NCBI GenBank assembly: GCA_947625155.1
Contig: CANQNG010000001.1
Coordinates: 1-39,147 of the forward strand
Length of the DNA: 39,147 nt
Origin: an uncultured Clostridia bacterium
Lineage (GTDB): Bacteria > Bacillota > Clostridia > Oscillospirales > Ruminococcaceae
Reading direction: 5' to 3'
Shown here one piece after another: positions 1,076 through 27,205 of the stretch (positions are counted from its first letter, which is position 1; each line of letters begins with the position of its first letter). The notes below the pieces were generated by a model that worked only from the letters and a program-made list of their open reading frames with translations, was not told where the DNA came from and ran no database searches. Made by a program: the position numbers and the translations under genes.

Positions 1076-1126
1076 ATGGTATAGTCCCCTTTGAGGGAGA
1101 TCCAAAAACAGAAAGAAGGAATCGAT

Positions 1127-2515
1127 GTGCTGAAAAATGCTGAAAAAAGCATGGATAAGATCGTTGACCTCTGTAAGTCCAGAGGGTTCGTATACGCAGG
1201 TTCTGAGATCTACGGAGGACTTGCCAATACATGGGACTACGGTCCGCTCGGTGTGGAGCTGAAAGACAATATCAAGCGTGCATGGCGCAAAAAGTTCATC
1301 CAGGAATGCCCTTATAACGTGGGGCTGGACAGTGCTATCCTCATGAATCCGGAAACTTGGGTCGCTTCCGGACACCTTGGCGGCTTCTCTGACCCGCTGA
1401 TGGACTGCCGTGCCTGCAAGACCCGTCATAGAGCTGACAACCTGATCGAGGACTTTGACGGCACGAATCCTGCTGGCTGGACAAATGACCGGATGATGGA
1501 CTACATCCGCAGCAAGAACATTCCCTGCCCCGTCTGCGGCAAGACGGATTTCACGGATATACGGCAGTTCAATCTGATGTTCAAGACATTTCAGGGCGTG
1601 ACGGAGGACTCTAAGTCTGAGCTGTATCTCCGCCCGGAGACGGCACAAGGTATTTTTGTCAATTTCCAGAACATCCAGCGCACCACCCGGAAGAAGATCC
1701 CTTTCGGCGTGGCACAGGTCGGCAAGTCGTTCCGGAATGAGATCACGCCCGGCAACTTCATTTTCCGGGTACGTGAATTTGAGCAGATGGAGCTGGAATT
1801 CTTCTGCAAGCCCGGCACAGATCTGGAGTGGTTCCAGTACTGGCGTGGCTACTGCCGTGACTTCCTGCTGGGGCTTGGCATCAAAGAGGAAAATCTCCGC
1901 CTGCGTGACCATGACCCGGAGGAACTGTGCTTCTATTCCAAGGCTACGACTGATTTTGAATACCTCTTCCCGTTCGGCTGGGGTGAGCTGTGGGGCGTTG
2001 CAGACAGAACGGACTACGACCTCACACAGCACCAGAAGCATTCCGGCAAGTCTATGGAATACTTTGACCCGGAAACGGAAACCAAATACATCCCCTATGT
2101 CATCGAGCCGTCTCTCGGTGTGGAACGTCTGTTCCTGTCCATCGTGACAGAAGCCTATGATGAGGAAGTCGTGGACGAAGCCAAGAAGGATACCCGTGTT
2201 GTGATGCATCTGCATCCGGCGCTGGCACCGTTCAAGGCCGCTGTGCTGCCGCTTTCCAAGAAGCTTTCCCCGGAGGCGCAGGAGATCTTCCGGAGCCTTT
2301 CCGGAAAATGGATGATCGATTTCGACGATACCGGTTCGATCGGCAAGCGTTACCGCCGGCAGGATGAGATCGGTACACCGTTCTGTATCACCTACGACTT
2401 TGATACCAAGGAAAAAGACGGCTGTGTGACTGTGCGTGACCGTGACACCATGGAACAGGTACGCATGCCCATTGCAGAGCTTGAGGGCTGGCTGACAGAA
2501 AAGCTTGCCTATTGA
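1127..2515 (+). CDS. glyQS: Glycine--tRNA ligase, single-chain type
   Basis: Class II aminoacyl-tRNA synthetase that charges tRNA-Gly in the cytoplasm. At 462 residues it is the homodimeric, archaeal/eukaryal-like form, not the two-subunit GlyQ/GlyS form. Visible family signatures are the N-terminal [20 protein letters not shown], the segment [12 protein letters not shown], motif 2 around SFRNEITP, and the C-terminal anticodon-binding domain near [20 protein letters not shown]. The four cysteines in [12 protein letters not shown] and CPVCGKTDF, residues roughly 90-150, look like the insertion domain usual in this form. The GTG at 1127 is chosen because AAGGA ends six bases before it; an upstream in-frame TTG at 1091 has no ribosome binding site and lies only nine bases after the predicted transcription start. 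It has its own promoter and terminator, so it is probably monocistronic. Confidence 0.96.
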
Positions 2516-2622: not shown

Positions 2623-2698
2623 TGGTCTGAGTGACGGGACTTGAACCCACGGCCTCTACCACCCCAAGGTAGCGCGCTACCAACTGCGCCACACCCAG
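2623..2698 (-). tRNA. tRNA-Pro (anticodon GGG)
   Basis: Read on the minus strand this folds as a full cloverleaf. The acceptor CTGGGTG pairs with CACTCAG (one G-U), the D stem is GCGC/GCGC, and the anticodon stem CTACC/GGTAG encloses the loop TTGGGGT, giving anticodon GGG. The T arm has the loop TTCAAGT. The discriminator is A and the CCA end is encoded (plus-strand 2623-2625). It reads CCC/CCU proline codons. It has its own promoter and terminator and is not part of a tRNA cluster in this window. Confidence 0.95.
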
Positions 2699-2801: not shown

Positions 2802-4268
2802 TCAGCTGACCTTTGCATATCTCTCACTCGAAAGCACATTCTCCATGATCTGGAGAGGAGAAATGTTCCCGCTGATCACCATGTCAAAGATCGCCGGACT
2901 AAAGCCGGAGACCAGTGCTGTGCCGCTCTTCTCTACGGTAACGGGAACATGGCTGTGACGGCTGTTCACATTCCAGAACACCACCTGCGGGAGCGTATAG
3001 CCGGCAGCCCTATAGCAGCGCCGCATCTGATCATAAAGTGTCTGCCTATTGCCGCCTGTGATGCAGGCGTTGAATTCCATATCCGAGATGATGTACAGTC
3101 TGTCCGGCATTTCCTCCTGCGGGAGCTGATACTTCATGGCAGTGGAGAGAATGAGACGGAACACGGCTTCCAGATCCGTACTCGATACTTCATGGAACGA
3201 AGCACAGTACTGCGCCTTTTCCACAATATCTCTGCCCATGATCTTCACAAGCTGTGGGCGGCTGGAGAAGGTAATGAAATGATCCGCAAAAGCCCCCTTG
3301 CTGTGCTCGGCAAAGTAAATGCCAAGAGAAAGCGCCGCATCGATCGGACGTACACCGGACATGCCCACTGTCATCGAGCCGGATCCGTCGATCACGGCAA
3401 TGGCATTTTCTTTCTGTTCCCCGAAAGCGGGAAGGCATCTCCACGTCAGATCCAGCGCCTGCCGATCCGCATCGGTCACAATGGACGGATACAGACAGCG
3501 GCGAATGATCTCATAGGGATAGAGCGTGGCAGCATTCAGCTTTGCCTTGCCCTGTTCTGCGGCATTGAGAAAGCCCATGTAACGCTCATAGTCATTGCGC
3601 AGGAACGCCTTGCGGTACTTGAACATTGCCCCGGCAGGCTGCTTCTCATAGTCAAAGCTGTAATTTGATGTACGCAAATGATTTTCCAGAATATCGCAAT
3701 AGCGCCGCAGCGCAGAGAGCAGCCTGCGGTAGCTGCGTTCGGTCATGCCAAGGCGCATGGCAAGGTAACGTGCGGTCTCCCTTGTTTCTTCCGAAGAAGC
3801 ATTGACGGATGGCAGCCACTTCGCCAGCAGGGAGACAGCGCCCTTTTCCTGCATGGCAGTCTGGTCTGCATCGAGCTGTTTCCGGATCTCAGCAAGTGCT
3901 GCTTTTTCACAAGGGGTATGCAGAAGAGCGCAGAGATCATCATAGCGCCCGTATTCGGAGAACAAGGGAATATTGCGTTTGACTGCCCTCGGTGACATAG
4001 AAGCGATCGTTTGCATGGCAATGCGGAAAAAGCGCCGCTCGCCAAGACCGCCCCTGATGTCTCTTGCAAAAAAGACGATCTTCATCGTTTTTTGGGCATC
4101 CTCCGCAAAGGCATGGGTCACTGCGGCTGCGATCTCCTGCGGAGCGGCATCCCGCATCGCACCTGCCCGGAAAAACAGATCCAGACAGAAGGATCCGCTG
4201 GTGCTGTAAGTAAGAGCGCCGTTTTCGGTATAAGTCAGATCTGCTTCCTGTTTCAAATAATTCAGCAT
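2802..4268 (-). CDS. DUF2828 protein, Ro60/TROVE-like RNA-binding vWA protein
   Basis: A 488-residue cytoplasmic protein without signal or membrane segments. The N-terminal half carries DUF2828 signatures: ENGALTYSTSGSFCLDLFF (residues 15-33) and ARDIRGGLGERRFFR (about 68-82), within a helical region like the HEAT-repeat ring of TROVE proteins. The C-terminal half is a von Willebrand A domain with a complete metal-binding MIDAS: DGSGS (294-298), Thr364 in SSTD, and Asp396 in ISDMEF. The segments ITFSSRPQL and LPQVVFWNVNSR are also typical of the family. Ro60/TROVE proteins bind Y RNAs and misfolded RNA ends; DUF2828 is a relative whose own function is undefined, so an RNA-binding role is inference. 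The ATG at 4268 follows GAGAGG at a seven-base spacing. About 400 bases of highly structured non-coding DNA lie directly upstream, and two WYL regulators are divergent beyond that. Confidence 0.82.
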   Translation of the reverse strand: MLNYLKQEADLTYTENGALTYSTSGSFCLDLFFRAGAMRDAAPQEIAAAVTHAFAEDAQKTMKIVFFARDIRGGLGERRFFRIAMQTIASMSPRAVKRNIPLFSEYGRYDDLCALLHTPCEKAALAEIRKQLDADQTAMQEKGAVSLLAKWLPSVNASSEETRETARYLAMRLGMTERSYRRLLSALRRYCDILENHLRTSNYSFDYEKQPAGAMFKYRKAFLRNDYERYMGFLNAAEQGKAKLNAATLYPYEIIRRCLYPSIVTDADRQALDLTWRCLPAFGEQKENAIAVIDGSGSMTVGMSGVRPIDAALSLGIYFAEHSKGAFADHFITFSSRPQLVKIMGRDIVEKAQYCASFHEVSSTDLEAVFRLILSTAMKYQLPQEEMPDRLYIISDMEFNACITGGNRQTLYDQMRRCYRAAGYTLPQVVFWNVNSRHSHVPVTVEKSGTALVSGFSPAIFDMVISGNISPLQIMENVLSSERYAKVS

Positions 4269-4302
4269 GGGAATACCTCTCTTTCTGTTCGTGGATCAAA
4301 AC

Positions 4303-4361
4303 ACGGCTCGTTGGGGATCAGATGATCCCACGTCGAATATAAGATCTGCTGTACGAGCCGT
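4303..4361 (-). ncRNA. Stem-loop element 1 (nearest the DUF2828 gene)
   Basis: A perfect 9-bp outer stem (plus-strand 4303-4311 with 4353-4361). On the minus strand ACAGCAG follows the 5' stem strand immediately (plus-strand 4346-4352), then a 16-base single-stranded part, then the inner hairpin GGGATC-loop-GATCCC (4314-4329), two bases, and the closing strand. A short GTTTT follows the outer stem on this strand, which could act as a weak terminator. Confidence 0.5.
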
Positions 4362-4380
4362 TCAGATGATCGCTTTCTGT
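4361..4380. repeat. Linker repeat, copy 1 (second copy at 4595-4614)
   Basis: TTCAGATGATCGCTTTCTG here recurs at 4595-4614 as TTCAGAATGATCGCTGTCTG, differing by one inserted base and one substitution. A shorter related CTTTCTG also occurs near 4281. The copies lie outside elements 1-3. They suggest that the array grew by duplication or that the linkers carry a shared signal. Confidence 0.6.
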
Positions 4381-4389
4381 GAGAGACCT

Positions 4390-4440
4390 AGGCACATACA
4401 TCACTTTATCGTTAAATGGATGCGTCTGCTGCGTGTGCCT
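4390..4440 (-). ncRNA. Stem-loop element 2
   Basis: A perfect 7-bp outer stem (4390-4396 with 4434-4440). On the minus strand one base separates the 5' stem strand from GCAGCAG (plus-strand 4426-4432). The inner hairpin is a 5-bp helix with one G-U (4398-4402 with 4419-4423), a 2x2 internal loop, and TTTA/TAAA closing a four-base loop. A single base joins it to the closing strand, so the motif sits in a strongly asymmetric internal loop. Confidence 0.5.
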
Positions 4441-4445
4441 GAAAC

Positions 4446-4504
4446 TCGGTGCTGCTGCGAACGAAGATCTTCAGTCTCCTGCAATGTACTGCTGTAGGCA
4501 CCGA
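4446..4504 (-). ncRNA. Stem-loop element 3
   Basis: A perfect 7-bp outer stem (4446-4452 with 4498-4504). On the minus strand two bases separate the 5' stem strand from ACAGCAG (plus-strand 4489-4495). The inner part contains the palindrome GAAGATCTTC (4463-4472). A second GCAGCAG lies on the 3' side, overlapping the closing stem by one base (plus-strand 4452-4458). Confidence 0.48.
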
Positions 4505-4511
4505 CACGGTC

Positions 4512-4534
4512 CTGCTGTACTCACCTGCGGTGAG
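4512..4534 (-). ncRNA. Partial element 4: hairpin next to ACAGCAG
   Basis: CTCACC (4520-4525), a three-base loop and GGTGAG (4529-4534) make a perfect 6-bp hairpin. On the minus strand TACAGCAG follows it directly (plus-strand 4512-4519). I find no convincing outer stem enclosing both, so this copy is either degenerate or arranged differently from elements 1-3. Confidence 0.35.
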
Positions 4535-4640
4535 GCTGCGGTATTTCATAGACGGCTGGTCACGTCAGGGCTTTTCGCCATAAATACTGCATCTTTCAGA
4601 ATGATCGCTGTCTGGACCTGTTGGATCTCTCAGATCTGTT

Positions 4641-4684
4641 TACTGTGTAGGCATCCGCTGTATCGGTCGGCTACAGTTACAGTA
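4641..4684 (-). ncRNA. Element 5, distal stem-loop with variant motif
   Basis: The plus-strand segment 4641-4650 pairs with 4671-4675 and 4680-4684, leaving a four-base bulge (4676-4679). Inside, CCG/CGG closes a six-base loop containing ATACAG, and the minus strand reads ACAGCGG, a one-base variant of the motif. It overlaps the possible -10 box at 4681-4686, so if that promoter is real only the inner 5 bp would be transcribed. Confidence 0.3.
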
Positions 4685-4686
4685 TA
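4681..4686 (-). promoter_or_regulatory. Possible extended -10 promoter of the RNA array and DUF2828 gene
   Basis: The minus strand reads GTGCTATACT, a -10 box with the TGn extension. No good -35 box is found 16-18 bases upstream, so this would be a weak or activator-dependent promoter. It is the only plausible promoter I see for the minus strand in 4269-4760. Confidence 0.35.
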
Positions 4687-4740
4687 GCACGTTCCGGCAG
4701 GAAAATCATGTAAAAAAATCTGCGCAGTCTGATCACCCTC

Positions 4741-4769
4741 TTGCAGCCGGCGGAGAATTCTGGTATAAT
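4741..4769 (+). promoter_or_regulatory. Promoter of the WYL regulator operon
   Basis: TTGCAG (4741-4746), a 17-base spacer and TATAAT (4764-4769). The first WYL gene starts at 4797 after a strong GGAGG. This promoter is divergent from the DUF2828 side, so one regulator could act on both directions. Confidence 0.75.
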
Positions 4770-4796
4770 ATAGTAGTGAGGAAAGGAGGGAACACG

Positions 4797-6068
4797 ATGA
4801 GCGGATTTTCGGAACTGATCAAGAATTTTGACAAGACAAGGGATCATATACGGGATTTTTTTATTTACGGCTTCAAGGTGCGCAGCGATTTCAGCCGCAA
4901 GAGCAGCCGCACCTATGATGACGAGCGGCGGCGTGTGGAAAGCTGGCTGGGGGATCATATCCGGTATGACAATACCCAGAGGGGACGGCAGATCTCGCTC
5001 ACGGTGGACAGCGGACACATTGCAGAAGATCCCCTGTATCAGGCATATTATGCCAAAAGCTTTACAGACAATGACATCCGTCTGCATTTTCTGCTGCTTG
5101 ACCTGTTGGCGGACGGAAAAACGCATACGCTCCGGGAGCTGACAGACCGTCTGGATACTGACTATGCGGTGCTGTTTGAGGAACAGACCGTCCGGGGAAA
5201 ACTCCGGGAGTATACCGGAGAGGGACTGGTCGTTACTGAAAAGCACGGGAAAACGGCATGCTATCGGCTTTCTGCGGATACCGTGGACAGCTTTTGGGAG
5301 ATGTGTGCCGGTCTGACAGATGCAGTCCGCTTTTTTTCAGAAGTACAGCCGTTCGGTGTGGTCGGCAACAGTATCCTCAAATGTATTGGCGCACAAAATG
5401 ATGTGTTTCTCCAGAAGCACCATTATATCGTACATACGCTGGAGGATGAGACGCTTTCTGTGGTGCTGCATGCCATGGAGGAAAAGCGCTATCTGACGTT
5501 CCGGGTGTTTTCCTCCCGGAGCGCACTGACAGATGCTTCCGGGCATGATGCCCGCTGTGTGCCGCTGCAGATCTTTATCTCTGTGCAGACAGGACGGCGG
5601 TATCTGGCGGGCTATGTGCCGGAATACCAGCAGTTCAGTGCGTTCCGGCTGGACTTTATCCGGGAAGTCCGGCAGGCGGAAACATGTTCGGACTATGACA
5701 GGCTGGCAGAACAGCTTCACCGGGATCTGCCAAAGCTGTTCGGCGTATCGTTCGGCATGCGGGATCCTGCCGGAGCTGTCGAACCGCTCCGTGTGACGCT
5801 CCGCATCCGGGAAAAAGAGGAGGCATATGTTCTGGAACGCATCCGCCGGGAAATGCGCTCCGGTACGGTCGAACGGATCGGGCAGGATACTTTCCTGCTG
5901 AAACTGGATATTTTTGACCCGAAGGAAGCACTGCCGTGGATCAGGACATTTACCGGCAGGGTGCTTTCCGTGGAGGGCGGCTGCCTGTCGGTGCGAAACC
6001 AATTTTACGAGGATGTCCTGCGGATGCAGGCACTGTATAAGGAGTCGGATCATGTCGATATTCCATGA
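4797..6068 (+). CDS. WYL-domain transcriptional regulator 1
   Basis: A 423-residue cytoplasmic protein. The N-terminal segment around DFFIYGFKVRSDF and RTYDDERRRVESWLGD is typical of clostridial WYL proteins. It is followed by a winged-helix-like region (about 95-158) and a WYL ligand-sensing domain (about 218-295, including YLAGYVPEYQQFSAFRLDFI), then a C-terminal extension. WYL proteins are transcription factors whose WYL domain binds ligands such as nucleic acids or nucleotides, and they often control stress, RNA-repair or defence genes. The ATG at 4797 is chosen because AAAGGAGG lies seven bases upstream; the earlier GTG at 4776 overlaps that site. It overlaps the second WYL gene by 17 bases, so the two are translationally coupled. 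The divergent DUF2828 gene is the likely target, by inference. Confidence 0.85.
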   Translation: MSGFSELIKNFDKTRDHIRDFFIYGFKVRSDFSRKSSRTYDDERRRVESWLGDHIRYDNTQRGRQISLTVDSGHIAEDPLYQAYYAKSFTDNDIRLHFLLLDLLADGKTHTLRELTDRLDTDYAVLFEEQTVRGKLREYTGEGLVVTEKHGKTACYRLSADTVDSFWEMCAGLTDAVRFFSEVQPFGVVGNSILKCIGAQNDVFLQKHHYIVHTLEDETLSVVLHAMEEKRYLTFRVFSSRSALTDASGHDARCVPLQIFISVQTGRRYLAGYVPEYQQFSAFRLDFIREVRQAETCSDYDRLAEQLHRDLPKLFGVSFGMRDPAGAVEPLRVTLRIREKEEAYVLERIRREMRSGTVERIGQDTFLLKLDIFDPKEALPWIRTFTGRVLSVEGGCLSVRNQFYEDVLRMQALYKESDHVDIP

Positions 6069-7032
6069 AATATATGGTGTATATTACCGCATTGCCGGAA
6101 AGCTTCTGGGGCGGGAACGCCTGACGGAGCAGGAGATAAGGGAGACTGTGCAGAAAGAGGGTTTCCGGGATTCGGTGCTGTTTCTTCCACAGAAGCTCCT
6201 GCCGCAGAAAGACGGTTCGGACTGGGGATTTTTTCGCCGTACAAAGGATGATGCTCTCGTGCCGGTGACAAAGCACAAGCCCCCACAGATCCTGACAGGA
6301 CTGCAAAAACGCTGGCTTCGTGCGGTTCTGGACGATCCACGCATTTTGCTTTTCCTGACGGAGGCGGAACGGCTGGCGCTGCTGGGTCGGCTCGGGGAGA
6401 CAAAGCCCTTGTTCCAGCAGTCGCAGTTCAGGTATACCGACCAATTCTCGGACGGGGATCCTTATGAGGACAAAAGCTACCAGCAGATATTCCGGCAGAT
6501 CCTGACTGCGATCCGGAAACAGTCGGTGCTGGCTGTGTCCTACCGGAGCGGCAGAAAAAACCAGCTATATCTGCACTGCGTGCCGCTAAAACTGGAATAT
6601 TCCGAAAAGAACGATAAATTTCGTGTGTACTGTATCGAGCTGCGGGGAAAGCGCTCTGCGGGCGCTATCCTCCTGAATCTGGGGCGCATCCGTTCTGTGC
6701 GGGATACGGGGGAGCAGCGTGAAAAAAGACTCTCGGCAGAAACGTATTTTCAGAAGCTCCGCTGCAAAGAGCCTGCTGTTGTGAAAGTATTCCCGGAGCG
6801 CAATGCGGTGGAGCGCTTCCTGATGGAGTTCGCTCCTTATGAGAAACGGACAGAACGTAACATAGAGAATGGCTGCTGTACCGTGCAGCTCTGGTATGAC
6901 CGGCAGGATGAAACGGAGCTTCTCATCCGTCTGCTTGGATTTGGACCAGTGCTGGAAATACTTGGTCCGCCGGAACTGCGCCGTAAGGCAGCAGAACGTG
7001 TGCAGATGCAGTGCAGACTGCTGCAGCTGTAG
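6052..7032 (+). CDS. WYL-domain protein 2
   Basis: A 326-residue protein starting at ATG 6052, inside the end of the first WYL gene, with AAGGAG seven bases upstream. A WYL-like sheet is recognisable at about residues 140-220 (AVSYRSGRKNQLYLHCVPLKLEY, then FRVYCIELRG). The C-terminal extension ends with LLGFGPVLEILGPPELR, a pattern common in WYL proteins. The N-terminal 130 residues are basic and helical, but I do not see a clear helix-turn-helix, so this member may sense or dimerise with the first. Adjacent WYL pairs like this probably work as a heteromeric regulator. The call rests on pattern recognition of the WYL and C-terminal regions. Confidence 0.75.
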   Translation: MSIFHEIYGVYYRIAGKLLGRERLTEQEIRETVQKEGFRDSVLFLPQKLLPQKDGSDWGFFRRTKDDALVPVTKHKPPQILTGLQKRWLRAVLDDPRILLFLTEAERLALLGRLGETKPLFQQSQFRYTDQFSDGDPYEDKSYQQIFRQILTAIRKQSVLAVSYRSGRKNQLYLHCVPLKLEYSEKNDKFRVYCIELRGKRSAGAILLNLGRIRSVRDTGEQREKRLSAETYFQKLRCKEPAVVKVFPERNAVERFLMEFAPYEKRTERNIENGCCTVQLWYDRQDETELLIRLLGFGPVLEILGPPELRRKAAERVQMQCRLLQL

Positions 7033-7077: not shown

Positions 7078-7111
7078 CCGACCTTTGCCGCCGTAAGGCG
7101 GCATTGGGAGG
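7078..7111 (+). repeat. REP-like palindromic repeat, copy 1
   Basis: The inner stem GCCGCC/GGCGGC is flanked by TTT and ATT, with CCGACC and GGGAGG outside. Copy 3 at 7268-7298 shares both outer flanks, and copy 2 has the same plan in the opposite orientation. Confidence 0.65.
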
Positions 7112-7267: not shown

Positions 7268-7298
7268 CCGACCTTTGCGGCGTAGCCGCATTGGGAGG
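7268..7298 (+). repeat. REP-like palindromic repeat, copy 3
   Basis: CCGACCTTTGC, a short GC stem (GCGGC/GCCGC) and GCATTGGGAGG. The flanks are identical to copy 1 but the stem sequence differs, so pairing is kept while bases change. Confidence 0.65.
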
Positions 7299-7355
7299 CA
7301 GGACGGGTGCAGCGTCACGCTGCCGGCGAAACACTTCTATACTACGCCATTTTCA

Positions 7356-25168: not shown

Positions 25169-25996
25169 ATGAGTACAGAATGCACACATGATTGCAGCAC
25201 CTGCGGGAGCAGCTGTTCCGAACGGACAGCGCCGCAGAGTATGCTGGAGCAGCCGAACCAGCTCAGCCGCATCGGCAAGGTGATCGGCGTTGTCAGCGGC
25301 AAAGGCGGCGTCGGCAAATCATTGGTCGCTTCCATGCTTGCGGTCGGGGTACAGCGTGCGGAAAAACACGCCGCTATCCTTGATGCGGATGTGACAGGAC
25401 CGTCCATCCCAAAGGCTTTCGGCATCCATGAGAAAGTGCTCGGCAATGAGCTTGGGCTGATCCCTGCCCGTTCCAAAATGGGGATCGACATCATGTCCGT
25501 TAATTTGATGCTGGAAAATGCTACCGACCCGGTCGTCTGGAGAGGACCTGTCATTGCGGGCGTGGTGAAGCAGTTCTGGACGGATGTGATCTGGGACAAT
25601 GTGGACTACCTGTTTGTGGATATGCCGCCCGGAACGGGAGATGTGCCGCTGACGGTATTTCAGAGCATTCCGGTGGACGGCATTGTCATTGTGACCTCAC
25701 CGCAGGAACTGGTCTCCATGATCGTGCAGAAAGCTGTGAAAATGGCAGAGATGATGCAGATCCCGGTGCTTGGTATCGTGGAGAACATGAGCTATGCGGT
25801 ATGTCCTGACTGCGGAAAGAAGATCATGGTCTACGGTGAAAGTCACACAGCGGAGATCGCCAAGGAATTCCACATTCCGCTGCTGGCACAGATCCCGTTT
25901 GACCCGGCGCTGGCAAAGTGCGTGGACATGGGCGTGATCGAACTGCATGAGTCGGATGCGATGGATGCGGCTGTTGCGGCGATCATGGGTGAATAG
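25169..25996 (+). CDS. Mrp/Nbp35-type Fe-S cluster carrier ATPase
   Basis: A 275-residue cytoplasmic P-loop ATPase of the ParA/MinD superfamily that carries iron-sulfur clusters to target proteins. The deviant Walker A GKGGVGKS lies at about 47-54 and the conserved DADVTGPSIPKAFG follows. The C-terminal CPDC (CxxC) binds the bridging cluster at the dimer interface. The N-terminus adds a four-cysteine cluster (CTHDCSTCGSSC), the Nbp35-like extension seen in many anaerobic Firmicutes. The ATG at 25169 follows AAAGGAG by eight bases. A terminator comes right after. LigA and UvrB do not need Fe-S clusters, but the PurF downstream appears to be an Fe-S type. Confidence 0.9.
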   Translation: MSTECTHDCSTCGSSCSERTAPQSMLEQPNQLSRIGKVIGVVSGKGGVGKSLVASMLAVGVQRAEKHAAILDADVTGPSIPKAFGIHEKVLGNELGLIPARSKMGIDIMSVNLMLENATDPVVWRGPVIAGVVKQFWTDVIWDNVDYLFVDMPPGTGDVPLTVFQSIPVDGIVIVTSPQELVSMIVQKAVKMAEMMQIPVLGIVENMSYAVCPDCGKKIMVYGESHTAEIAKEFHIPLLAQIPFDPALAKCVDMGVIELHESDAMDAAVAAIMGE

Positions 25997-26233: not shown

Positions 26234-27205
26234 ATGAAGCTGCTGTCGATCATTGTGCCCTGCTACAACGAGGAGGAGGTCCTTCCGCTGTTTTATGATG
26301 AGATCCGGAAAGTCATGGCACAGATGCAGGAGACCTACCCGGAACTGTGCTTTGAACTGCTGTTCATTGATGATGGCTCAAAGGACAAGACACTGGAGAT
26401 CCTCCGGAGCATGTCACTTGCGGACAAGCAGGTGCGGTATATTTCTTTCTCCCGGAATTTTGGCAAAGAAGCGGGCATGTATGCCGGACTGGAGAATTCG
26501 AAGGGGGACTTCGTGGTCGTCATGGATGCCGATCTGCAGCACCCGCCGGCTTTTCTCCCGCAGATGTACAGCTATGTGCGCAGCGGTGAATATGACTGTG
26601 CCACGACCCGCCGTGTGAGCCGGAAAGGGGAATCGAAGCTCCGTTCCTTCTTTGCAAGGACGTTCTATAAGCTGATGAATAAGATCTCTCAGACGGAGAT
26701 CGTGGACGGAGCGCAGGATTTCCGGTTCATGACAAGGCAGATGGTCGATGCGATCCTGCAAATGCACGAGTACAACCGCTTTTCCAAGGGGATCTTCAGT
26801 TGGGTGGGCTTTAAGACCCGTTACATTGAGTATGAAAACGTCGAGCGCCCGGCGGGAACGTCCTCGTGGTCGTTCTGGGGGCTGTTCCGGTATTCACTGG
26901 AGGGGATCTTTGCGTTCTCGACAGCACCGCTGTCCTTTGCGGTACTGGTTGGTGTGCTGATCTGTCTGATCTCGCTGGTGCTGCTGATCCTGTTTGTCGT
27001 GAAAGCAGTGATCGTACCGGATGCGGATCTGCGGTTTCTGGCGGCGCTGTGTATCCTTTCTCTGCTCAGCGGCTTGCAGCTATTCAGCATCGGGATACTG
27101 GGGCAGTACCTCTCCAAGACATACATGGAGAGCAAGCACCGTCCGATCTACTTGACGAGGGAGACGGAGAAAACCTACCGCAGCCGGCAGGGTGAGGGGC
27201 AATGA
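26234..27205 (+). CDS. GT2 glycosyltransferase with C-terminal membrane helices (GtrB/DPM1-like)
   Basis: A 323-residue enzyme that probably transfers a sugar from a nucleotide sugar to a polyprenyl phosphate on the inner face of the membrane. The GT-A fold starts with SIIVPCYNEEEVLPLFYDEI and has the metal-binding motif in VVVMDADLQHPP. Two hydrophobic segments near residues 230-300 (around VLVGVLICLISLVLLILFVV and FLAALCILSLLSGLQLFSIG) anchor it. This is the common layout of bactoprenol glucosyltransferase relatives. The ATG at 26234 follows AAGGAGG. Its stop overlaps the start of the next gene (ATGA). The sugar and acceptor are not determinable. Confidence 0.88.
   Translation: MKLLSIIVPCYNEEEVLPLFYDEIRKVMAQMQETYPELCFELLFIDDGSKDKTLEILRSMSLADKQVRYISFSRNFGKEAGMYAGLENSKGDFVVVMDADLQHPPAFLPQMYSYVRSGEYDCATTRRVSRKGESKLRSFFARTFYKLMNKISQTEIVDGAQDFRFMTRQMVDAILQMHEYNRFSKGIFSWVGFKTRYIEYENVERPAGTSSWSFWGLFRYSLEGIFAFSTAPLSFAVLVGVLICLISLVLLILFVVKAVIVPDADLRFLAALCILSLLSGLQLFSIGILGQYLSKTYMESKHRPIYLTRETEKTYRSRQGEGQ

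Follow-up and report, generated by a model that had tools for sequence, protein, structure and literature searches.

Can a protein family other than TROVE hold structured RNAs in the manner of Ro60 and its Y RNAs? This question is raised by a locus from an uncultured Clostridia bacterium of the Ruminococcaceae (assembly GCA_947625155.1), in which a gene of the DUF2828 family is preceded by non-coding DNA and, beyond it, by two divergently oriented genes for WYL-domain regulators. The locus lies at positions 2802-7032 of a stretch of 39,147 nucleotides (nt) (contig CANQNG010000001.1, positions 1 to 39,147), referred to here as the window. An earlier note on this DNA had read it as a parallel Ro60/Y RNA-like system, an interpretation that seems largely right on the sequence evidence presented below. 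Computation establishes an RNA family that has a covarying stem and accompanies DUF2828 in bacteria and phages, the linkage with WYL and RtcB genes, an operator-like element and the presence of some tRNA-like inserts; from these we infer binding of the RNAs, their processing, regulation by the WYL proteins and a role in RNA repair or surveillance. The locus would thus probably encode a particle of the Ro60/Y RNA type in which a DUF2828 protein stands in for TROVE, under WYL control.

The RNA unit and its association with DUF2828 genes

In a first comparison of 25 DUF2828 loci from the same family (Ruminococcaceae), a common pattern can be found ahead of most of the genes. The unit consists of a stem of at least 7 pairs, 0-2 nt, the core ACAGCAA or ACAGCAG, a variable-length insert and a closing arm; the stem letters often read AAG.../...CTT-G and the closing arm mostly ends in CTTG or CGTG. 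The main bacterial sample comprised the best 80 of 566 loci from genome records, a strict unit being defined as an ACAGCAR core with matching arms of at least 7 pairs and the upstream region as the 1.5 kb ahead of the gene. Within this region, 240 of 289 cores have matching arms. The same is true of 29/159 cores in a same-strand downstream control (425 kb), of 0/15 on the opposite strand of the upstream region, and of 119/1115 combinations of a core's own 5' arm with the 3' region from another locus. At least one strict unit is present in 77 of the 80 loci, with 0 to 7 units per locus. The three loci devoid of strict units are L124, with 132 bases of upstream sequence, L133, whose array-like start lies at -3.7 kb, and L107, where the operator-like element described below is present.

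Regarding the stem, covariation was assessed by an arm-dealing test that involves no selection on pairing and covers 288 of the 289 cores (one has no flank), each dealt arm differing from the own arm at two or more places. The own, fixed 7-nt arm finds a downstream complement in 231/288 cores, whereas arms dealt from other cores do so in 468/5760 (8%). For cores with an arm at least two places off AAGGCAC, the corresponding figures are 146/202 (own) and 251/4040 (dealt), and 59 distinct arms occur among the paired cores. In an alignment of 71 units, taken from the 240 for having inserts of 20-30 nt and a conserved G and with duplicates dropped, six of the seven pairs change on both sides and the covariation score is reached by 0/500 shuffles; within the 7-bp stem, pairing is seen in 99.4% of the alignment cells, a count inflated by the choice of units that have arms, for which reason the arm-dealing test is preferred. 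The covariation of the stem is real, and several controls show the tie between DUF2828 and the ACAGCAA/G RNA family to be strong. With Rfam, no match above cut-off was obtained for the units of 20 relatives, the only matches being five to tRNA models, all of them upstream of DUF2828 and on its strand.

Units in the window and in related genomes

In the window, the gap between the DUF2828 gene (2802-4268, minus strand) and the first WYL gene spans 4269-4796 and has no Rfam match, YrlA included. The earlier note had described this DNA as hairpin-rich. As a statement on general folding this did not hold, the stretch 4269-4690 folding no better than its dinucleotide shuffles (z -1.05 on the minus and -1.27 on the plus strand). 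As a statement on specific units it did, three strict units being found in the leader (4269-4796) versus 0/1000 shuffles reaching three. The signal above chance in the window is therefore the specific form of the unit rather than general hairpin content. One of the three strict units, with its core near 4518 and its arm 142 nt away, is probably spurious.

With R1, a covariance model built from the 71 bacterial units, the 39-kb window yields matches at 4363-4300, 4506-4443 and 4440-4390, all on the DUF2828 strand, and the next-best match after these has an E-value of 4.7. The unit closest to the gene (4300-4363, minus strand) combines a ACGGCTCGT / ACGAGCCGT stem with the core ACAGCAG (33.7 bits, E 8.2e-7), and is recovered also in an R1 scan of the whole genome. 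The unit at 4443-4506 (minus strand) displays a TCGGTGC / GCACCGA stem with CTACAGCAG (21.5 bits, E 0.0015). Between them, at 4390-4440 (minus strand), lies a unit with an AGGCAC / GTGCCT stem and a core altered to CGCAGCAG (11.6 bits). The segment 4507-4680 (minus strand) would form the opening part of the presumed transcript and may contain a decayed unit, and a purine stretch ahead of the DUF2828 start (4276-4286, minus strand) resembles a ribosome-binding site.

At E<=0.01, R1 matches can be found in 12 of 119 genomes of the family, and DUF2828 in 9 of these 12; the three others have one weak match each (E 0.0014 to 0.006). One genome with DUF2828, G111, has an additional match apart from its DUF2828 (G111:C40, E 4.2e-4). 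By eye, the matches apart from DUF2828 (G111:C40, G049:C38, G075:C19 and G028:C161) resemble coding sequence or terminator-like hairpins; such weak matches are treated as chance, and G111:C40, from a DUF2828 genome, may be genuine. As a control, R1 was applied to five loci with a TROVE match (five of the six in the phylum, the sixth, G483, having an in-frame stop), where nothing better than E 0.41 and no ACAGCAA unit was found.

Phage loci and published observations

Of 50,697 phage records, 679 contain DUF2828, which can also be found in no fewer than 566 genome stretches from bacteria or archaea. In a viral sample of 80 loci (protein identity 37-44%), strict units are present within 1.5 kb upstream in 58 loci, anywhere on the DUF2828 strand of the fetched stretch in 70, and on the other strand in 8. 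Once nine near-identical loci were dropped, R1 at E<=0.01 gave 132 matches in 60 of the 71 remaining loci, all on the DUF2828 strand, and covariation of the stem can be seen in the 129 distinct viral matches, these being fitted to the model. The upstream sequences of DUF2828 genes are thus related to one another in bacteria and viruses alike; this and the covariation of the stem both came out in favour of the earlier note, which had named unrelated upstream sequences or stems lacking covariation as refuting outcomes. Among the stretches fetched from 13 named phage records, with DUF2828 proteins 29-41% identical to that of the window, 12 harbor a strict unit on the DUF2828 strand and one on the other strand; two of the 12, PVA23 and KP2025, have units that look doubtful. 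In several large phages, DUF2828 and its units lie beside tRNA genes, and the DUF2828 gene of Listeria phage P100 has tRNA genes ahead of it and a tRNA splicing ligase gene 1.3 kb behind it.

Phage records carry the label 'Ro-like RNA binding protein' (Listeria P100, cka15 and mycobacteriophages, e.g., JoeDirt). These proteins belong to the same DUF2828 family and are accompanied by units of the same form; a difference is that, in several records, the phage copies lie among tRNA genes or close to them. In the accessible text of a 2025 study (PMC12282133), CKA15_055, the homologue of Listeria phage cka15, matches Rsr by HHpred, is detected in purified particles and has, at a distance of no more than 2 kb, three non-coding regions with high transcription that are suggested as possible Y RNAs, and no RNA family is defined there for these regions. 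The remark of the earlier note that it was not aware of a described RNA partner for DUF2828 needs qualifying to the extent that Rsr and Y RNAs had been suggested for the cka15 homologue in that accessible text. Phage cka15 has three units, at L235 3650-3930 (about 25,270-25,555 of the phage record), some 700 nt past its most abundant RNA region.

Among the titles and abstract openings listed by a literature search, with subscription papers mostly outside its scope, nothing points to an ACAGCAA RNA family or to a link between WYL and DUF2828, and the papers found for DUF2828 are, judged by title, plant work. To the reading of the earlier note, the analysis adds the form of the unit and its spread among phages, the link with RtcB in relatives, a shared operator-like element and, for a minority of units, tRNA-like modules.

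The DUF2828 protein and its relation to Ro60

The protein of the window (488 amino acids) has an N-terminal region and a C-terminal vWA domain with a full metal ion-dependent adhesion site (MIDAS), an arrangement that suggests a Ro60-like plan. In Pfam, it matches DUF7788 (E 1.1e-47) and DUF2828 (E 2.2e-32), together with a sub-threshold match to VWA_2; scans of NCBIfam and PADLOC gave zero matches. All five residues that we take to form the MIDAS (D294-x-S296-x-S298, T364 and D396) are invariant among 22 aligned homologues, which bears out the complete MIDAS described in the earlier note. No TROVE (PF05731) match can be found for this protein or elsewhere in this genome, and TROVE is found in 0/197 genomes of the order and 6/299 of the phylum. 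In a one-against-one comparison of the DUF2828 and TROVE profiles, hhalign returned a probability of 77.8 with an E-value of 1.9e-5, and the Ro60-like plan of DUF2828 can be regarded as a supported lead, not a result.

With the Ro60/Rsr system (rsr-yrlBA-rtcBA operon), DUF2828 loci share a vWA protein with a MIDAS, adjoining structured RNAs and, in relatives, the linkage to RtcB. They differ from it in that DUF2828 has no TROVE match and that arrays of several units are often present. Moreover, a WYL pair lies beside DUF2828, whereas RtcR is given as the usual regulator of rtcBA in the accessible text of PMC7790460.

tRNA-like inserts and YrlA

Some inserts resemble parts of tRNAs. A five-pair T-arm can be found 58 times in 115 kb upstream versus 0 on the opposite strand, whereas the 425 kb downstream contain 17, with two more on the other strand of that stretch; a few of the upstream T-arms belong to tRNA-gene-like sequence (L133). 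Of the 240 strict units, 14 have a D-arm motif, of which eight have the T-arm before the D-arm (permuted), four are in normal order and two are without a strict T-arm. In L127, L129, L130 and L134, the insert is a normal-order tRNA-like body (D-arm, anticodon-like arm, T-arm) whose acceptor end is extended by the stem of the unit, which differs from the permuted layout of YrlA. An anticodon-arm pattern was set aside: it has 50 matches upstream (115 kb) versus six on the opposite strand, 36 of the 50 being T-arms caught by the same pattern, and little is claimed from the other 14, two of which are in the tRNA-gene-like sequence of L133. In L133, tRNA-Arg- and tRNA-Phe-like genes lie at about -1160 to -990, between the array-like start and the DUF2828 match.

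The likeness to the bacterial Y RNA YrlA resides in the permuted module of T-arm, acceptor and D-arm, present in the units of some relatives only, the protein-binding stem of YrlA being replaced in DUF2828 units by the ACAGCAA stem. In six loci picked for such units, the Rfam YrlA model (RF02553) aligns end to end on four units (E 2.7e-9 to 2.1e-5), all four alignments being under the curated cut-off of 69 bits (best 53.6 bits, L116); at the gathering cut-off, YrlA is found in none of 20 loci. In the alignment of L116, a single unit, the tRNA-like module fits YrlA, the pairs of the inner protein-binding stem are broken and ACAGCAA is found instead. The model also matches weakly elsewhere, its best match in this genome being partial (23.1 bits), and 13 of 14 control genomes give sub-cut-off matches at E<=1; two of the five TROVE loci have YrlA matches of about 40 bits, including one that aligns end to end. 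Considering the L116 alignment and the YrlA matches in TROVE loci, the effector module may be common to both systems and the docking stem may go with the protein.

These inserts bear on a rival explanation, according to which the RNAs would mainly bait tRNA-cutting nucleases during phage infection, the protein only storing or protecting them. Such a tRNA decoy is raised as an idea for YrlA in the accessible text of PMC7790460, and would agree with the inserts that copy T- and D-arms (a few resemble anticodon arms), with the several large phages holding the pair beside tRNA genes, with the RtcB linkage and with the PADLOC WYL models. However, a strict T-arm is absent from 211 of the 240 strict units, none is seen in the units of the window, and DUF2828 has no PADLOC match. 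A defence role of this kind thus appears unlikely, if still worth considering beside the particle of Ro60/Y RNA type.

Promoter region, operator-like element and position of the units

Upstream of the array, an operator-like element, CGCAGATTTTTTTACATGATTTT (4702-4724, minus strand), is the presumed site of the WYL regulators and the sole match in the window to the operator-like core at one mismatch or fewer. It is followed by an extended -10-like element, TGCTATACT (4681-4689, minus strand), which would mark the start of the presumed array/DUF2828 transcript; a simple promoter scan did not list TGCTATACT at 4689-4681. In relatives, when one mismatch is again allowed, the 351 kb upstream of DUF2828 contain 53 matches to the core CGCARMTTTTTTT, as compared with one in 308 kb downstream and five on the opposite strand. 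By eye, its spacing to the extended -10 element is mostly near-constant, ahead of RNA arrays and of rtcB alike. Because of the gene linkage, the WYL proteins can be proposed as readers of this element.

With the units of the window sitting downstream of the promoter-like element and ahead of the start codon, a cis-acting leader can also be envisaged, in which the units would control how the DUF2828 message is processed, stabilized or translated, the protein perhaps being bound to its own leader, and no free small RNA would be made. A terminator scan called none on the DUF2828 strand in the window, and the units are just ahead of the start codon in many bacterial relatives too, both of which would suit a leader. 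By contrast, the number (0 to 7 strict units per locus), spacing and inserts of the units vary, and tRNA-like inserts would be without obvious use there. Units can be found, furthermore, ahead of rtcB, with DUF2828 behind it (L048, and L052 by sequence similarity), and in phages behind the gene (JoeDirt, S-CoN_Ph13) or among tRNA genes (AYO145A). Since some phage units sit behind the gene, the units are not tied to a leader, and control in cis alone is a distinctly improbable account of them.

An arrangement like a type III toxin-antitoxin pair, with the RNA units as antitoxins blocking a toxic DUF2828 protein, is very hard to sustain: the patchy distribution of DUF2828 (28/297 genomes) and the RNA repeats directly ahead of a protein gene, as in the type III layout, would suit it, but the DUF2828 protein matches no toxin model, an endoribonuclease toxin domain being absent in the Pfam, NCBIfam and PADLOC scans, the units vary in both stem and insert, unlike the nearly identical repeats of toxI type, and RtcB/WYL neighbours and tRNA-like inserts fit poorly.

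WYL and RtcB neighbours

The first WYL-domain regulator (4797-6068, plus strand; 423 amino acids) is divergent from the array and matches WYL in Pfam (E 1.5e-4) and PADLOC (E 2.2e-14), and the second (6052-7032, plus strand; 326 amino acids) likewise (E 0.014 and 3.2e-15, respectively). As the earlier note had reported, the two genes overlap, by 17 nt; as to their assignment, the Pfam evidence is weak and that of PADLOC clear. Both are found beside DUF2828 in 17 of the 25 family loci, several of the other eight ending at contig edges. Among the 80 bacterial loci, a WYL gene is present in 53, RtcB in 37 and either of them in 59; restricting the count to the 49 with full flanks (at least 4.5 kb upstream and 3 kb downstream) gives 38, 28 and 40, respectively. 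Pfam confirmed RtcB in five of ten neighbour proteins scanned. In the annotated phage neighbourhoods viewed, no gene is named WYL, many products there being unnamed. WYL-regulated RNA repair or defence loci are similar in having WYL genes next to an RNA-handling module, and differ from the present locus in its DUF2828 gene, its RNA array and the operator proposed for it.

Several further features can be found near DUF2828 genes. In L041, a gene for a HIGH nucleotidyl transferase (PF05636), a family with a known member that modifies tRNA-Met, is located at 5298-6449 (plus strand), near the DUF2828 locus. In the window, a tRNA-Pro (GGG) gene (2623-2698, minus strand) is directly behind the DUF2828 gene, and the DUF2828 system may have inserted beside it; beyond it lies a glycyl-tRNA synthetase-like gene (1091-2515, plus strand), named from reading of the translation alone. 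Behind the second WYL gene, a short sequence, GACCTTTGC...GCATTGGGAGG, is present in two copies (7080-7110 and 7270-7300, plus strand) and looks like a small interspersed repeat.

Proposed mechanism

For the particle of Ro60/Y RNA type, the following mechanism can be hypothesized. From a promoter at about 4681 (minus strand), marked by the operator-like element at 4702-4724, a single transcript would run through the units into DUF2828, and the units would presumably be cut out, or protected, by the DUF2828 protein. Each unit would combine a common docking end, namely the short stem and, on its inner 5' side, the ACAGCAA or ACAGCAG that follows, with a swappable insert. The DUF2828 protein would hold the docking end, while the insert might control access to the ring, or recruit or imitate tRNA-binding partners. 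The two WYL proteins would switch the system on upon RNA damage, and RtcB, linked in many relatives, would reseal cleaved RNA.

A number of observations weigh against this proposal. Within the genome, the unit at 4390-4440 is weak when taken alone (E 0.72), no tRNA-like module is seen in the units of the window, the only rtcB detected maps to a different contig, and the 5.2 kb around it contain only one match to the operator-like core, with two mismatches and on the other strand; DUF2828 was not found in the four other genomes of the genus searched. Regarding the protein, the hhalign match covers 96 columns within 232-332, reaching the start of the vWA domain, and the TROVE profile consists of three sequences; a PDB sequence search with DUF2828 gave no relative, its two chains (E 0.73 and 0.9) being unrelated. 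In relatives, CGCARMTTTTTTT is present in 44 of the 75 loci with at least 1.5 kb upstream, not in all, some few of the 53 matches stand at unexpected positions and could be due to chance, and a strict T-arm is found in 29 of the 240 strict units. Among viral loci, a strict unit is missing from the upstream 1.5 kb in 22 of 80, and the top RNA region of cka15 (26,236-26,727 in the accessible text of PMC12282133, corresponding to L235 2477-2968) has no ACAGCAA core and may represent a large non-coding RNA of another kind.

Significance for the DUF2828 family

With these units, DUF2828, a widespread family with no function assigned to it, gains a defined, testable candidate RNA partner, which suggests that the idea of Ro60 and its Y RNAs exists with another protein family and another docking stem. 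More tentatively, and at somewhat less than even confidence, DUF2828 proteins could constitute a second, TROVE-independent class of Ro-type ribonucleoproteins in bacteria and phages, with modular RNA arrays that have a shared docking end and interchangeable heads. If so, the heads would include both normal-order and permuted tRNA mimics, and one protein would be loaded with a set of RNA adaptors. Large phages would carry sets of their own, at least one of them with the protein inside the virion (CKA15_055, according to the accessible text of PMC12282133). RNA partners would also be expected for DUF2828 proteins in plants and in other eukaryotes. If the particle of Ro60/Y RNA type is right, the system may explain unassigned RNAs beside phage tRNA genes and, in gut bacteria, the locus would represent a WYL-linked branch of RNA repair and, with its interchangeable inserts, a natural modular adaptor system.

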